Assembly: GCA_013824085.1 (NCBI GenBank)
Contig: PNNF01000014.1
Coordinates: forward strand, 1-58,279
Origin: Chlorobiaceae bacterium
GTDB lineage: Bacteria > Bacteroidota > Ignavibacteria > Ignavibacteriales > Ignavibacteriaceae
Direction: 5' to 3'
DNA length: 58,279 nt
Under the pieces are notes generated by a model. That model ran no database searches, was not told the origin of the DNA, and was given only the letters and a program-made list of their open reading frames with translations. The translations under genes and the position numbers were made by a program. How positions within the stretch are numbered: position 1 is the stretch's first letter; each line of letters opens with the position of its first letter. Positions 25,757 to 36,624 of the stretch are shown piece after piece.

Positions 25757-25786
25757 TTTGTGTTAAAACTTTTTCTGATATCTTTG
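25757..25786 (+). promoter_or_regulatory. Predicted promoter of the carA operon
   Basis: TTTG (25757-25760), 18 bases, then TATCTTTG (25779-25786), which matches the Bacteroidota-type consensus with one base less spacing than ideal. Transcription would start near 25793 and give a leader of about 110 bases that contains the hairpin at 25858. Confidence 0.5.
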
Positions 25787-25857
25787 TGAAAAATTTAACC
25801 TAATTTTATTTAAGCAATTGAACAAAATAATCTTTTTCAAAATAGACTTTATAATTG

Positions 25858-25887
25858 AAGCCATCCTATGGGATGGCTTTTTTTTTA
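25858..25887 (+). promoter_or_regulatory. Terminator hairpin in the carA leader (candidate attenuator)
   Basis: AAGCCATCC (25858-25866) pairs perfectly with GGATGGCTT (25871-25879) over a TATG loop, followed by an unbroken T-run to 25886. The carA ATG is at 25902. The T-run is on the plus strand only. The nearest upstream plus-strand gene ends 650 bases away, so the hairpin most likely sits inside the carA transcript. I see no PyrR-box match and no clear leader peptide, so any sensing mechanism is unknown. Confidence 0.65.
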
Positions 25888-25901
25888 TGTGAGAACACAA
25901 A

Positions 25902-26969
25902 ATGAAAAACAGAATAGCAAAATTAATTCTTGAAGATGGTTCAGTATTTGAAGGTGTTTCCTTCGGGTTTGAAAAATCTGTAAACGGCGAAGTAGTGTTC
26001 AATACTGGAATGGTTGGTTATCCAGAGACAATGACAGACCCTTCCTACAGTGGACAAATTTTAGTTCTCACCTATCCGCTCATTGGAAATTATGGTGTAC
26101 CAAACGATGAGTTGGAAAATCAACTTAAGAAAAATTTTGAATCAGATAAAATTCAAGTACGCGCTCTGATTGTATCCGATTATACAAAAGATTATTCACA
26201 TTGGAGTGCTGTTAAATCTTTGGGCGAATGGCTTATTGAAGAAAAAATTCCTGCACTTTATGGAATCGATACTCGAATGTTGACTCGCAAACTTAGAGAA
26301 AATGGAACGATGCTTGGAAAAATTATTTTCGATAAAGATAAGATTGAATTTGAAGACCCTAATCTAATGGACATTGTTAGAAATGTAACATTAAAATCTC
26401 CAATTGAATACTTAAAAGGTGAAAAGAAAATTTTTCTTGTTGATTGCGGTGCAAAAAATAATATTCTGCAAGCTTTTTTACGCAGAGGAATTTCTGTCAT
26501 TCGTGTTCCTTACGATTATGATTTTGTATCTGATTCAGTTTCGGGAATTGTAATTTCAAACGGACCTGGCGATCCAAAAATGTGCAAGACAACAATAGCA
26601 ACCACGAAAAAAGCAATCGCAAAACAGATCCCAATTTTGGGTATTTGTCTAGGCTGCCAAATACTTGCACTCGCATCAGGAGCTGATACTTACAAATTAA
26701 AATATGGCCATCGTTCACACAATCAACCTGTAAATGAAAGTGGCACTAAACGCTGCTATATCACTTCGCAAAATCATGGCTATGCTATTGATTCAAATTC
26801 ATTAAGCGAAGATTGGCGAGAGTGGTTTACAAATGATAACGATGGAACTAACGAAGGAATAATTCATATTGCTAAACCTTTTTTTGGTGCGCAATTTCAT
26901 CCCGAAGCTTCGCCCGGTCCTGACGATACAGAATTTATTTTCGATATGTTTGTTCGAGCATTGAAATGA
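25902..26969 (+). CDS. carA: Carbamoyl-phosphate synthase small subunit
   Basis: The glutaminase subunit, which frees ammonia from glutamine for CarB. It is 355 residues, the normal length. The N-terminal CPSase domain starts LILEDGSVFEG. The class I glutamine amidotransferase triad is Cys249 in GICLGCQ, His333 and Glu335 in QFHPEA, and the oxyanion turn is SNGPGDP. Carbamoyl phosphate feeds pyrimidine and arginine synthesis. Its stop overlaps the start of a DNA methyltransferase gene by four bases (ATGA). carB follows that gene. Confidence 0.97.
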   Translation: MKNRIAKLILEDGSVFEGVSFGFEKSVNGEVVFNTGMVGYPETMTDPSYSGQILVLTYPLIGNYGVPNDELENQLKKNFESDKIQVRALIVSDYTKDYSHWSAVKSLGEWLIEEKIPALYGIDTRMLTRKLRENGTMLGKIIFDKDKIEFEDPNLMDIVRNVTLKSPIEYLKGEKKIFLVDCGAKNNILQAFLRRGISVIRVPYDYDFVSDSVSGIVISNGPGDPKMCKTTIATTKKAIAKQIPILGICLGCQILALASGADTYKLKYGHRSHNQPVNESGTKRCYITSQNHGYAIDSNSLSEDWREWFTNDNDGTNEGIIHIAKPFFGAQFHPEASPGPDDTEFIFDMFVRALK

Positions 26970-27934
26970 AAGTGAAAGCAAGCAGAAATAAAACAATTCA
27001 ATTTTCTGAATCAGAAAAAAAATCTTTGTCGGAAGAATTGATAAAAATAAATTCAAAAGTTTCTTTGTGTGAAATCAAAAATAAAATTATTAATCAAAAT
27101 TTGTTTGAAGTGCTTGATTATTTACCAAACAACTGTATCGATTTATTAATAATTGACCCGCCATACAACCTAACAAAAAAATTTAATGAAAATAAATTTT
27201 TTGAACGAAGCAAAGAAGAGTATGAATTGTGGCTTGAGTCTTGGCTTTCAAAAATAATTTTCTCTCTGAAAGAATCTTCCTCTATCTATATTTGTTGCGA
27301 TTGGCATTCATCATCTTCAGTAGAAAAAGTTGCATCAAAATATTTTATTCCGCAAAACAGAATTACTTGGGAAAGAGAAAAAGGGCGTGCGGCAAAATCA
27401 AATTGGAAAAATAATTCTGAAGATATTTGGTTTTTTACCAAATCGAATGAATACAAATTTAATGTTGATGCCGTAAAACTAAAACGAAAAGTAATTGCTC
27501 CATACAAAGATGAAAATGGAAATCCAAAGGATTGGGAAAAAACTGATAAAGGAAATTTTAGGTTAACTGCTCCTTCAAATATTTGGACAGATATTACAGT
27601 GCCATTTTGGTCAATGTCTGAAAACACAGATCATCCAACTCAGAAGCCAGAAAAATTAATTGCAAAACTTATCCTTGCATCGTCAGATGAAAATGATTTT
27701 GTGTTCGATCCATTTCTTGGCTCTGGAACAACTGCAGTTACTGCAAAAAAACTTAATCGAAATTTTTGCGGAGTTGAAGTTGATGAATATTACTCGCTTC
27801 TTGCTGCAAAGAGGTTAAATATTGCTGAACATGAAAAATCTATTCAAGGCGTTCATGATGGCGTCTTTTATGAGCGAAATGTAATCAGAGAAATTAAACT
27901 CCCTCAAAACTTAAAAGAGAAAAAACATGATTAA
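26966..27934 (+). CDS. Site-specific DNA methyltransferase, beta class
   Basis: A 322-residue amino-methyltransferase. Catalytic motif IV DPPY is at 64-67. A central target-recognition region follows, then HPTQKP at 223-228, and the SAM-binding motif I FDPFLGSGTT lies at 247-256. The order IV-TRD-I defines the beta class. DPPY usually goes with N6-adenine methylation, though N4-cytosine is possible. All key residues are intact. No restriction endonuclease adjoins it, so it looks like a solitary methyltransferase. The gene overlaps carA by four bases and carB by eight, so it is translationally locked inside the carbamoyl phosphate operon. The recognition site cannot be read from sequence. Confidence 0.93.
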   Translation: MKVKASRNKTIQFSESEKKSLSEELIKINSKVSLCEIKNKIINQNLFEVLDYLPNNCIDLLIIDPPYNLTKKFNENKFFERSKEEYELWLESWLSKIIFSLKESSSIYICCDWHSSSSVEKVASKYFIPQNRITWEREKGRAAKSNWKNNSEDIWFFTKSNEYKFNVDAVKLKRKVIAPYKDENGNPKDWEKTDKGNFRLTAPSNIWTDITVPFWSMSENTDHPTQKPEKLIAKLILASSDENDFVFDPFLGSGTTAVTAKKLNRNFCGVEVDEYYSLLAAKRLNIAEHEKSIQGVHDGVFYERNVIREIKLPQNLKEKKHD

Positions 27935-30900
27935 AAAAGGAAAACCAAAAAAAGTTTTAATACTTGGAAGTGGTGCGCTACAAATTGGACAAGCAGGCGA
28001 GTTTGATTATTCAGGTTCACAAGCTATTAAAGCACTCAAGGAAGATGGCATTGAAACTGTTCTAATTAATCCGAACATCGCAACAATACAAACTTCTGAA
28101 CATCTTGCAGATAAAGTTTATTTCCTTCCTGTAAAAGTTGAGTTTGTTGAACGTGTAATTGAAAAAGAAAAACCAGATGGAATTCTGCTGGGCTTTGGTG
28201 GACAGACTGCACTCAACACGGGAGTTGAACTTTTTGATCAAGGAATTTTAAAAAAATATAATGTAAAAGTTCTCGGCACTTCTGTCGAGACAATTAAAGA
28301 TACTGAAGACCGCCTTTTATTTGGGAATCGTGTTAAAGAAGTTGATCTGAAAATTGCAAAGAGTGAAACGGTAGCAAATGTTGAAGAAGCAATCTTAGCT
28401 GCAGAAAAAATTTGTTATCCTGTGATGGTAAGAATTGCCTATGCGCTTGGTGGGCTTGGTAGCGGAATTGTAAACAACAAAGAAGAATTAATTGAAAAAG
28501 TTTCTCGTGCATTTTCATTCACAAAACAAATTTTGATTGAAGATTCTTTATACGGTTGGAAAGAAGTCGAATATGAAATTGTAAGAGATCAATTCAATAA
28601 TTGCATCACTATTTGCAATATGGAAAATGTTGATCCGATGGGCATTCACACAGGCGACAGCATTGTTGTTGCGCCCGTTCAAACATTGAATGCACAAGAA
28701 AATTTTATGTTGCGTTCAATCGGAATAAAATTAATTCGTCATCTTGGAATTATTGGCGAATGCAATATTCAATATGCGCTTAATCCAAGCAATGGTGATT
28801 ATAGAATTATTGAAGTGAACGCAAGACTTAGTAGGAGCTCTGCGCTTGCTTCAAAAGCAACTGGATACCCGCTTGCATTCGTCGCCACAAAACTTGCAAT
28901 CGGTTACAACTTAAATGAAGTCGAAAACATTATCACCAAAGAGACATCTTCCTGTTTTGAGCCGGCATTAGATTATGTTGTGCTAAAATTTCCTCGTTGG
29001 GATTTACAAAAATTTAAACAAGTTAGCACTCTACTTGGAACAGAAATGAAATCTGTCGGCGAGGTTATGGCTATTGGAAGATCTTTTGAAGAGGTTTTGC
29101 AAAAGGCAATACGAATGCTTGATATTGGTATGAATGGATTCGTCTGCAATAATATTGATTTTGAAAACATTGACGAAGGCATTGCAAAACCAACAGACAA
29201 GCGACTCTTCATAATTGCGAATGCATTGCAAAAAAATTATTCGGTTGAAAAGATTCACCAATTATCAAAAATTGATAAATGGTTTTTACACAAAATGAAA
29301 AATATTGTTGATGTAAAAAATCTTCTTGAAAAAGAAAATCTTGATTCGTTAGAAAAAAATTTATTATTAATAGCTAAACAAAAAGGCTTTTCAGATCTAC
29401 AAATTTCTACTTTGCTAAATTCCACTGAAGAAGAGATTAGAGAAAAACGAAAATCAGAAAATATTATTCCTTCAATTAAACAGATTGATACTCTCGCAGC
29501 TGAATATCCTGCTCAAACAAATTATCTTTACATGACCTACAATGGGTTTGAAGATGATATTATTTCAGGAGAAAAAAATCAGATAATTGTTCTTGGTGGT
29601 GGACCTTACAGAATAGGCTCATCTGTTGAGTTTGATTGGTGCTGTGTTAATTCAGTTTTAACGCTGAACGAACTCAATAAAAAAACAATCATGATTAATT
29701 ACAATCCAGAAACCGTTAGCACTGATCACGATATTTGTGACAAATTATATTTTGAAGAGATGACGCTCGAACGTGTGCTTGATATTTATGAGAAAGAAAA
29801 TCCCGAAGGAATAATTATTTCGATGGGAGGACAAATTCCAAACAACCTTGCTTTGAAATTAAACAAAAATAAAGTTAAAATAATTGGGACTAAACCAGAA
29901 CAAATTGATAACGCTGAAGATAGAAATAAGTTTTCAAAAATTTTAGATGCCTGCAACATTGACCAACCTGAATGGAAAGAGTTAACAAGTCTAAGTTTGG
30001 CAAAAGAATTTGCAAACAGAGTTGGCTATCCTGTTTTGATTAGACCAAGTTATGTTTTAAGCGGCGCAGCAATGAGTATTGTTTTGTCTGAAAATGAGCT
30101 TGAAGAATTTTTGAAAAAAGCTGCTGACATAAGTAATGAACATCCAGTGGTGATAAGCAAATTTATTACTGACGCACGCGAAATTGAAGTTGATGCAGTT
30201 GCAAATTCTGGTAAACTTTTTTGTTATGCAATTTCTGAACACGTTGAAAATGCGGGCGTTCATAGCGGCGATGCAACTTTGGTGCTTCCTCCACAACGCA
30301 CTTATCTTGAGACTATGAGAAGAGTAAAAAATATTACTAAAGAAATTGCTCAAGCTCTTGAAATTACTGGACCTTTCAACATTCAGTTTATTGCAAAAGA
30401 TAATGACGTAAAAGTAATTGAATGTAATCTTCGTGCATCAAGAAGTTTTCCTTTCGTCTCTAAAGTATTGAAAATTAATTTCATCAATATTGCAACAAAA
30501 TTAATGATGGGAATTGAGTTACCTAAAATTGACAAGTCTTCTTTCGACCTTGATTTTGTTGGCGTTAAAGCAGCTCAATTTTCTTTTACTCGACTGAAGG
30601 GAAGCGATCCCGTTACTGGAGTTGAGATGAGTTCAACAGGTGAAGTGGCTTGTTTAGGTGATGATTTTAATGAAGCATTTTTGAAAAGCGTTATGTCAGT
30701 TGGATATAAGATTCCACAAAAGGGAGTTTTACTTTCAACTGGTACAGCACGTGACAAAGCGGTTTTTCTTGAAGACGTTAGAACGCTTTCGAATCTTAAA
30801 TTAAAATTATATGCAACCAAAGGAACATCAGACTATTTAAGAACTCAAGGAATTGATTCCGAAATTCTTTATTGGCCACTTGAAAAAACTGAACCGAATA

Positions 30901-31121
30901 TCTTGACTTATCTTGCTGCTGGAAAAATTGATTTAGTAATTAATATTCCTAAAAATACTGAAGTAACAGAACTTGAAAATGATTACATCATTAGAAGAAA
31001 AGCTATCGACTTAAATATCTCATTGATAACAAATATTCAGTTTGGAAAAAGGTTTGTTAAATCTATAGAAAGATATTCACCAAAAAATTTAGAAGTCAAA
31101 AGTTGGGATGAATATTATTAA
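27927..31121 (+). CDS. carB: Carbamoyl-phosphate synthase large subunit
   Basis: The synthetase subunit, 1064 residues, essentially full length. Two homologous ATP-grasp halves are visible: the first starts KVLILGSGALQIGQAGEFDYSG, the second NQIIVLGGGPYRIGSSVEFDW. A C-terminal MGS-like allosteric domain of about 130 residues begins near LKLYATKGTSDYL. It condenses ammonia, bicarbonate and two ATP into carbamoyl phosphate. It starts within the end of the methyltransferase gene with an eight-base overlap. Confidence 0.98.
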   Translation: MIKKGKPKKVLILGSGALQIGQAGEFDYSGSQAIKALKEDGIETVLINPNIATIQTSEHLADKVYFLPVKVEFVERVIEKEKPDGILLGFGGQTALNTGVELFDQGILKKYNVKVLGTSVETIKDTEDRLLFGNRVKEVDLKIAKSETVANVEEAILAAEKICYPVMVRIAYALGGLGSGIVNNKEELIEKVSRAFSFTKQILIEDSLYGWKEVEYEIVRDQFNNCITICNMENVDPMGIHTGDSIVVAPVQTLNAQENFMLRSIGIKLIRHLGIIGECNIQYALNPSNGDYRIIEVNARLSRSSALASKATGYPLAFVATKLAIGYNLNEVENIITKETSSCFEPALDYVVLKFPRWDLQKFKQVSTLLGTEMKSVGEVMAIGRSFEEVLQKAIRMLDIGMNGFVCNNIDFENIDEGIAKPTDKRLFIIANALQKNYSVEKIHQLSKIDKWFLHKMKNIVDVKNLLEKENLDSLEKNLLLIAKQKGFSDLQISTLLNSTEEEIREKRKSENIIPSIKQIDTLAAEYPAQTNYLYMTYNGFEDDIISGEKNQIIVLGGGPYRIGSSVEFDWCCVNSVLTLNELNKKTIMINYNPETVSTDHDICDKLYFEEMTLERVLDIYEKENPEGIIISMGGQIPNNLALKLNKNKVKIIGTKPEQIDNAEDRNKFSKILDACNIDQPEWKELTSLSLAKEFANRVGYPVLIRPSYVLSGAAMSIVLSENELEEFLKKAADISNEHPVVISKFITDAREIEVDAVANSGKLFCYAISEHVENAGVHSGDATLVLPPQRTYLETMRRVKNITKEIAQALEITGPFNIQFIAKDNDVKVIECNLRASRSFPFVSKVLKINFINIATKLMMGIELPKIDKSSFDLDFVGVKAAQFSFTRLKGSDPVTGVEMSSTGEVACLGDDFNEAFLKSVMSVGYKIPQKGVLLSTGTARDKAVFLEDVRTLSNLKLKLYATKGTSDYLRTQGIDSEILYWPLEKTEPNILTYLAAGKIDLVINIPKNTEVTELENDYIIRRKAIDLNISLITNIQFGKRFVKSIERYSPKNLEVKSWDEYY

Positions 31122-35358: not shown

Positions 35359-36624
35359 TTGATAGACATAAAAGTAACGAGAAAAGAGAGAGCAATTCTT
35401 GTAGCAGTTCGAACGAAGAATCTTTCAAGAGAAACTTCTATTGAACATATAAACGAATTGGAGGAGCTTACATACACAGCGGGAGCTGAAACTTTATTTA
35501 AAATAGTTCAAGATAGAAATAGTCCAGACAAAGCTTTTTACGTTGGTAAAGGAAAGGCAGAGGAGATCGCTCAACTCATTGAATTGAATGATGTTGATTT
35601 AGCAATCTTCGATGATGATTTATCGCCGATTCAAACACGTAATCTGGAAGAATTGTTTAAGAAAAAAATTGTGGATAGAAGCGGTTTAATCCTTGATATA
35701 TTTGCCTCTCGTGCAAAAAGTAAAGAAGCAAAAACTCAAGTAGAGTTAGCGCAGCTTCAATATATGCTTCCACGATTAACGAGAGCTTGGACTCACTTAT
35801 CAAAACAGTTTGGCGGAATCGGAACAAAAGGTCCCGGCGAAACTCAAATTGAAACTGACAGAAGAATGATTAGAACTCGAATTAGTCATTTGAAAGAAAA
35901 ATTAGAAAAGATAGAATCACAACGAGAAACGCAAAAACAGAAACGAAGTGAAATGGTTAGAGTCGCTCTTGTTGGTTACACTAACGCTGGTAAATCTACT
36001 CTCTTCAATCTCCTTTCAGATGCTGATGTACTTGCTGAAGATAAACTTTTTGCGACACTTGATTCCACTACTCGCTCAGTAGAACTTATAAAAAACATGA
36101 AAATTCTTTTTAGTGATACAGTCGGTTTCATTAGAAAACTTCCGATAAACTTAGTTGCATCTTTTAAGAGTACATTGAATGAAGTCAGAGACGCAGATAT
36201 TATTTTGCACGTCATCGACATCGCACATCCTTATTATTTAGAGCATCTCGAAGTTGCAGAACAAACTCTAAAAGATTTAAAATGCGACACTAAACCAACT
36301 CTAAAAGTTTTTAATAAAGTTGATGCGCTTGAGGATAATTCTAAAATTGATTATGTCCTGAATAGATTTGACAACGCTGTTGTTATCTCTGCAAGAAGAG
36401 GAATAAATATCAGCTCATTGAAAGAAAAAATTTTAATCCATGCAATTAAAGAAGAGATTGAAGATGAGTTAAATATTACTTATCAAAAATCTAAACTTAT
36501 CTCAAAAATTCATGAACTATCAGAAGTGATTTCGATTGAGTATGAAGAAGATTACATAAAAATAAAATTCAAAGCTTCAAAAATTAATAGTGAAAAAATT
36601 AGAAAGATGTTTTATGGCGAATAA
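35359..36624 (+). CDS. hflX: GTPase HflX
   Basis: A ribosome-associated GTPase that splits stalled ribosomes under stress. The 421 residues show the N-terminal HflX domain with [10 protein letters not shown], the linker [19 protein letters not shown], then the G domain with GYTNAGKST at 206-214 and the FNKVDAL specificity motif. The start is TTG at 35359-35361, since no ATG precedes the conserved N-domain. Its stop lies inside the start of hutH, with an 11-base overlap. Confidence 0.95.

Follow-up and report, generated by a model that had tools for sequence, protein, structure and literature searches.

A core DNA methyltransferase gene, apparently solitary and probably relocated into the carA/carB overlap of an Ignavibacteriaceae bacterium

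Contig PNNF01000014.1 of assembly GCA_013824085.1 (Chlorobiaceae bacterium; family Ignavibacteriaceae, order Ignavibacteriales) carries a complete gene for a beta-class DNA methyltransferase (MT) between carA and carB, the genes for the small and large subunits of carbamoyl phosphate synthase. The window, that is the whole stretch of DNA that was analyzed, comprises 58,279 nucleotides of this contig. MT is present in nearly all genomes of the order, and among the genomes in which carA and carB could be placed together it lies between them only here. Taken as a whole, the explanation that we consider likely is that MT is a core gene of the order, inherited mainly vertically and apparently solitary (orphan), which in this lineage was relocated into carAB and is now co-expressed with it.

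An intact methyltransferase gene between carA and carB

All three genes are open frames with profile matches (Table 1). The products of carA and carB scored 444 bits against TIGR01368 and 1514 bits against TIGR01369, both over the curated cut-offs, and MT matched PF01555 (2.7e-44, 152 bits against a gathering score of 26.7). The motifs DPPY (residues 64-67), HPTQKP (223-228) and FDPFLGSGTT (247-256) were all found. The beta class is defined by motif order, with DPPY ahead of FxGxG, and MT has this order together with a PF01555 match over the gathering score, which places it in the beta (N6_N4) class. A reading of the sequence alone, made before this analysis (the sequence-only reading), had described an intact beta-class methyltransferase overlapping carA by 4 nt and carB by 8 nt; the frames, the motifs and the coordinates confirm this description. 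That MT might be a degraded remnant was rejected because its motifs and length are intact.

Table 1. Features of the car locus, in positions of the window
Feature	Positions	Strand	Remarks
TATCTTTG, promoter-like -7 element of Bacteroidota type	25779-25786	+	Upstream of carA; consensus match only
Possible TTG-initiated leader open reading frame, 24 codons	25818-25892	+	Passes through the hairpin
Terminator-like hairpin with U-run, putative attenuator	25857-25888	+	carA leader, between a divergent GNAT gene and carA
carA, carbamoyl phosphate synthase small subunit	25902-26969	+	355 aa; open frame and profile match
MT, beta-class DNA methyltransferase	26966-27934	+	322 aa; open frame and profile match; apparently solitary
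ATGA overlap of carA and MT	26966-26969	+	5' copy of the ATGA that in many relatives links carA straight to carB
8-nt overlap of MT and carB, ATGATTAA	27927-27934	+	Contains the 3' ATGA copy
carB, carbamoyl phosphate synthase large subunit	27927-31121	+	1064 aa; open frame and profile match

In an alignment of 12 MT sequences DPPY was invariant. Apart from their outer positions, where F247 and T256 differ in several rows, HPTQKP and FDPFLGSGTT varied little or not at all; a single row shows C and V in the glycine loop. A C-terminal signature, IQG....VF.ERN, was conserved beside the catalytic motifs. The best solved relatives by sequence were M.BceJIV and MboIIA. A structure model built from the 12 sequences (mean pLDDT 74.9, several stretches below 50) gave M.MboIIA (1g60), M.BceJIV (8urk) and CcrM (6pbd) as best fold matches, with TM-scores by query of 0.52-0.58, rmsd values of about 5-11 Å over the first 20 matches, and identities of 29-35% for MboIIA and M.BceJIV and 25-26% for CcrM. 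All three are among the best solved relatives by sequence as well as the best by fold. Unlike CcrM or the adenine methyltransferase PRK11524, which we take to be YhdJ, MT scores beneath the respective NCBIfam cut-offs (97 against 830 bits for NF050803, 138 against 292 bits for NF008572), and we therefore give this beta-class enzyme no name. MT probably targets the N6 of adenine in DNA. Most of the top solved matches are N6-adenine enzymes, and N4-cytosine enzymes of the same fold match too. The recognition motif is not deducible from the sequence, and no paper on M.BceJIV was found.

MT was the sole match at E <=1e-60 in the 2.65-Mb assembly. A copy left behind at an older site was rejected, as no second orthologue was found in the assembly. 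Four other PF01555 pieces on contig C43 (15244-17852), in open frames of 233-464 codons, suggest that this genome has other methyltransferase genes.

MT is a near-universal gene of the order

MT was present in 150 of the 164 genomes of the order (E <=1e-70), and in 104 of the 109 with a completeness of 90% or more and a contamination of 5% or less; both counts include the present genome. Identities within the order were mostly 54-66%, nearly all genomes had a single copy, and the frames were open in nearly all rows listed for relatives. In the class as a whole, MT was found in 139 of 391 genomes (E <=1e-60), which a hand count, with the rows assumed to be sorted by kinship, divides into 86 of the 91 members of the order and 53 of the 300 genomes from elsewhere in the class. 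A contig scan for homologues returned seven loci, one of which (26% identity) is not an orthologue. Contigs labelled Tissierellia and Ruminococcus and a Prevotella replicon carry homologues of 50-56% identity, and a Fibrobacter-labelled contig matched at 73% over 181 residues. Two homologues are on mobile records, namely a phage-labelled, unverified contig (52%) and the Prevotella replicon (55%), both without annotated neighbours.

The best PADLOC models for MT itself were Type II methyltransferases, and the endonuclease of a Type II restriction-modification system does not adjoin the gene. No restriction family was found among the 10 neighbours of MT (PADLOC) or six proteins (Pfam), unlinked restriction enzymes not having been sought; the scan gave a weak LeoBC match of 27 bits for the gene at 35359-36624. 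Among the MT loci of relatives described below, no recurrent neighbour cluster was recognised as a nuclease, judging by clusters and sequence starts, with a profile scan beside the second MT copy of genome G013. That second copy lies away from the kinase site described below (locus L032), and its three adjoining genes had no Pfam match. Lineage-wide conservation of this kind is unlike the patchy distribution of restriction systems, and MT apparently is a solitary methyltransferase. The statement of the sequence-only reading that no restriction enzyme is present holds among the 10 neighbours, and the epigenetic or housekeeping role that it proposed is supported by a near-universal, solitary gene that groups with its own family and has no linked restriction family.

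Conserved orphan methyltransferases of Halobacteria are likewise described, in the part of the source available to us, as lineage-wide and without a restriction partner (PMC6471742). That case is archaeal. Our literature search, with most subscription journals outside its scope, found no paper on an Ignavibacter orphan methyltransferase or an Ignavibacteria methylome.

The order carA-MT-carB is found in one genome

In the order, carB was found in 138 and carA in 137 of 164 genomes, and both could be placed on one contig in 128, including this one. MT lies between them in this genome and in none of the 127 others. Gaps between carA and carB, measured from alignment ends, were -4 nt in 51 genomes, zero or less in 73 (the 51 included), 1-130 nt in 42 and more than 130 nt in 13. 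All gaps above 130 nt were read in sequence; the reading revised three values (G060 from 169 to 115, G107 from 655 to 631, and G083 from below 130 to 161) and left the last count at 13. A conserved carA-MT-carB operon was rejected with one genome in 128, and the settled arrangement that had been proposed from the overlaps is not borne out. The sequence-only reading was to be refuted by an order unique to this genome together with a degraded MT in relatives; the order is unique, but the MT frames of relatives are open in nearly all rows listed, so that one half of this condition applies. The genus is represented by one genome, so that the age of the arrangement cannot be bounded.

Other genes occur at this junction in relatives. 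The gaps hold a DUF433/DUF5615 pair with a GIY-YIG gene in G001 (the GIY-YIG gene assigned by eye), a DUF433/DUF5615 pair in G098 (DUF5615 by eye), a GIY-YIG gene in G081, a Phd-like/ParE pair in G008 (the Phd match beneath the cut-off), a Y1 transposase-like gene in G107 and a PD-(D/E)XK gene in G143. Pieces resembling a four-helix-bundle protein by eye, with one 50-aa piece lacking a Pfam match, lie in G033, and a clear gene was absent from the large gaps of G028, G038, G046, G083 and G084; the Pfam scan covered nine frames from these gaps. Genes have thus been taken up there repeatedly, and the junction is tolerant rather than locked. The gaps in loci L102-L107 and L122-L125, with their toxin-antitoxin-type, GIY-YIG, PD-(D/E)XK and Y1 transposase-like genes, look like an insertion hotspot between two biosynthetic genes. 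Short intergenic inverted repeats, REP-like by eye, were also seen at carA/carB gaps (L127, L128) and in carA leaders (L105, L128). Contig C8 of G020 (L133) bears an additional carA, more diverged (62% identity), and behind it, where the contig ends, part of an additional carB.

These junctions raise the question whether MT is simply one more arrival at a place that receives short mobile or addictive genes, perhaps as the remnant of a mobile restriction-modification unit from another cell. The gene types just listed, the phage-labelled homologue and the variable site of MT among relatives would all fit such an opportunistic insertion. However, the tree described below puts this MT beside members of its own family, it is the only copy found while the commonest sites of the gene are empty, and neither carA, MT and carB nor the six proteins in the Pfam scan included a mobile-element gene. 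A recent foreign insertion is likewise not favoured, given this grouping and the ordinary GC content of MT (30.7%, against 32.4% for the window). We regard the opportunistic origin as distinctly unlikely.

The old site and the exactness of the insertion

We collected 54 MT loci from 53 relatives, clustered their neighbours by single linkage and counted by hand. A hybrid histidine kinase gene lies directly upstream of MT in 15 loci (in one case only a 399-nt piece of it), and five more have the downstream flank of that site, sixA or a lipoprotein-like gene, beside MT. MT lies between metG and a PpiC-type isomerase gene in 14 loci, and elsewhere or at contig ends in 20. Both conserved sites exist in the present genome and neither holds MT. 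On contig C24 the gene of a 171-aa MORN-repeat protein stands behind the kinase gene, where MT would be; then come sixA, a small gene, a lipoprotein-like gene, a further gene, uvrC and glgC. On contig C13 the PpiC-type isomerase gene stands immediately behind metG.

The tree comprised 58 MT sequences. The candidates were the 54 from relatives and five from named loci, without the Fibrobacter locus L094; of these, G024 (227 aa) and the Tobar contig (207 aa) were dropped as short. On the tree the present MT pairs with G023 (98/86), and G028 joins them next (91/81). Both belong to the family of this genome, and in G028 MT sits behind the histidine kinase. The kinase site is the most likely origin of the relocated gene, as far as gene order and tree can indicate, and descent within the family followed by relocation to the carA/carB junction is the simplest history, which the tree supports without proving.

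In G044 the carA/carB junction reads ..gcattgaaATGATTATAAAAAG (short form gcattgaaATGATTAT..), and in G047 ..gcattaaaATGATTAAAAAAGG, in each case with one ATGA that ends carA and starts carB. The present genome reads ..gcattgaaATGAAAGTG....GAGAAAAAACATGATTAAAAAAGG. Its flanks agree with the junction in these relatives and enclose a 961-nt insert with ATGA at each end. The TAA stop codon of MT falls out of frame within the first carB codons (27927-27934). We propose that the MT coding sequence moved, presumably in a single step, from a former place that most likely lay between the hybrid histidine kinase gene upstream and the convergent sixA, and that its insertion at the 4-nt ATGA overlap between carA and carB was exact. 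Such an insertion would leave ATGA at both ends, let carA keep its stop codon and put the MT stop codon out of frame inside the carB start. Since ATGA also opens the MT genes of many relatives, the insertion may have come about by recombination at this short identity. The same picture would result from a 4-bp target duplication.

The carA leader and expression of the locus

No terminator-like site was found on the + strand from the start of carA to the end of carB, the interior of MT included, and sigma-70-like matches in the region were not in excess (22, against 21.0 in shuffles). Together with the overlaps, the lack of such a terminator-like site fits a single transcript of carA, MT and carB, and MT probably shares the car transcript and its control region. 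The overlaps make translational coupling of the three genes plausible.

The hairpin ahead of carA (Table 1) has a stem of 10 bp; the + strand of the window has three strong sites of this type, this one included. The upstream GNAT gene is divergent, so that the hairpin is a leader element in this genome and a terminator of the upstream gene was rejected. Among 14 relatives with the hairpin, 10 have a nearest upstream frame that runs away from carA and four have one that runs towards it, and for these four a terminator of the upstream gene is a possible explanation. In 52 carA leaders, mostly from the family of this genome (the second carA copy of G020, G020b, among them), one scan found such a hairpin in 33, against 4 of 1040 dinucleotide-shuffled leaders. 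The scan gave none in the other 19, including five leaders of the diverged car lineage and several of the genome's own family. For G037, G041, G051, G054 and G055, among these 19, the result is doubtful, as no ATG stands at the placed carA start; four of them were also hairpin-free in a separate scan of relatives. The stem forms were GCCACT in 21 leaders, GCCGCT in six, GTCCCG in two and four single forms; as the hairpins were chosen for pairing, the paired changes show that the sequence varies and are not an independent test of covariation. The leader of this genome folds modestly better than its shuffles (z -1.68). A terminator sequence common to the group was rejected because GCC[A/G]CT..AGTGGC occurred 0 times in 627,251 bases of other loci, a scan that was the only use of L134 and L135. 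A known RNA family was also rejected: the window and the loci of 10 relatives had no Rfam match at the gathering score, and of six matches beneath it the best had an E value of 0.015.

The Bacteroidota -7 consensus is TAnnTTTG. It occurs within 320 nt of carA in 12 of 20 relatives at varying distance, as a raw count. An open reading frame (ORF) starting 30-75 nt upstream reaches the hairpin in 22 of the 33 leaders, against a mean of 10.5 and a maximum of 19 in 300 shuffles. This excess is carried by TTG starts; ATG starts alone show none (3 against 4.9). The TTG starts lie partly within a TTGAACAA-like stretch, which may be an RNA motif instead of part of a leader ORF. A AGAGTCTA stretch was seen near the 5' side of the hairpin in 13 of the 33 leaders (at most one mismatch; L136-L175 and others), against 1.8% in shuffles, both AGAGTCTA and TTGAACAA having been chosen by eye in the very sequences that then served for counting them.

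In E. coli pyrBI, a leader ORF runs into a terminator hairpin ahead of a pyrimidine gene. The carA leader resembles this attenuator in layout, with the hairpin between a promoter-like site, recognised by consensus, and the first gene. The hairpin is a putative transcription attenuator of carAB, perhaps of pyrBI type, and it is possible that it would now control MT too. The transcript most likely runs from the carA promoter through this leader and all three genes, with translational coupling at both junctions.

The carA motif RNA of Polynucleobacter is likewise a candidate RNA control element directly upstream of carA. In the part of that source available to us it is an extended imperfect hairpin near the ribosome-binding site in beta-proteobacteria, whereas the element described here is a short terminator-like hairpin with a U-run (PMC8632094). 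For E. coli carAB, the accessible text of a further source describes control by two promoters, repressors and UTP-dependent reiterative transcription, and states that attenuation plays no part in arginine control (PMC6245113). Among the matches listed on carAB attenuation, the carA leader and carA/carB organisation, the arrangement described here was not reported in titles or abstract beginnings.

Does the position of MT serve a function?

MT might have been fixed in carAB by selection, so that its level, or methylation, follows pyrimidine or arginine status, with the attenuator setting carA, MT and carB together. Several features are in keeping with such a link: MT overlaps both neighbours, which the other large inserts at the junction do not (by eye), the terminator-like leader recurs upstream of carA, and no such site interrupts MT on the + strand. 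However, the order exists in one genome of 128, MT of relatives lies near the histidine kinase gene, metG and many other genes, and unrelated genes enter the same junction, for which reason position alone is no argument for function. We judge a selected functional link to be unlikely as the explanation of the arrangement.

The sequence-only reading had tied methylation to the supply of pyrimidines and arginine. As the general role of MT this tie cannot stand, since relatives keep the gene beside the kinase gene, metG or other genes; in this genome the carA leader hairpin offers it a possible basis, and a selected tie of MT to pyrimidine supply is possible but unproven. In Salmonella, according to the part of the source at hand, Dam overproduction enlarged the CarA-ON subpopulation, and in cells lacking Dam carA changed little or not at all (PMC7708049); nothing follows from this for the organism studied here.

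Discussion

Relocation of a core methyltransferase gene into carAB, with co-expression, is the explanation that we prefer, and a number of observations weigh against it. Resolution of the MT tree is weak (27 of 55 inner branches starred), the family of this genome (f1) needs five changes on it and is not one clade, and the sister sequence from G023 is a long branch of unusual composition; loss of MT followed by regain from a relative is therefore possible. MT loci at neither conserved site make up 20 of the 54 in relatives, which makes the kinase site the probable rather than the certain point of departure. 

The genus offers a single genome in an assembly of 75 contigs, and both junctions are read from this one assembly. 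This fragmentation, and the absence of the order from every other genome, might suggest that misassembly joined MT to carA and carB. Both joins, however, fall exactly at start/stop overlaps with both car genes open, and this assembly shows no MT at either of the usual two sites. An artefact of this kind is very improbable.

A gene between carA and carB has precedents. In the text available to us, carA-orf-carB(-greA-rpfE) operons are described as co-transcribed in Xanthomonas citri and Pseudomonas aeruginosa, and the 444-bp ORF of Xanthomonas overlaps carA by one base and is co-transcribed with carB (PMC4619228). The earlier view that carA and carB are normally adjacent or unlinked is thus incomplete. 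The likeness lies in the intervening gene; the Xanthomonas ORF is only 'putative protein coding' in that source, whereas here a complete core methyltransferase overlaps both neighbours (PMC4619228). Intervening genes and orphan methyltransferases are already known, and what is new is their combination together with a legible relocation.

After its relocation, MT presumably still methylates its motif genome-wide for an epigenetic or housekeeping purpose, and the change would lie in its mode of expression. A bolder version holds that a core solitary methyltransferase has come under a pyrimidine-responsive attenuator, so that methylation follows UTP or arginine supply and one relocation created a link from metabolism to epigenetics. 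We hold this version to be doubtful.

The locus offers a clean natural case of a core methyltransferase gene that has moved into the overlap of two biosynthetic genes, leaving three frames without visible damage, in which the probable old site, the new site and the junction of relatives can all be read. It draws attention to a near-universal, apparently solitary methyltransferase of a bacterial order, and to a recurrent carA leader hairpin without an Rfam family at the gathering score. What MT marks, and whether its expression follows pyrimidine supply, can now be tested.

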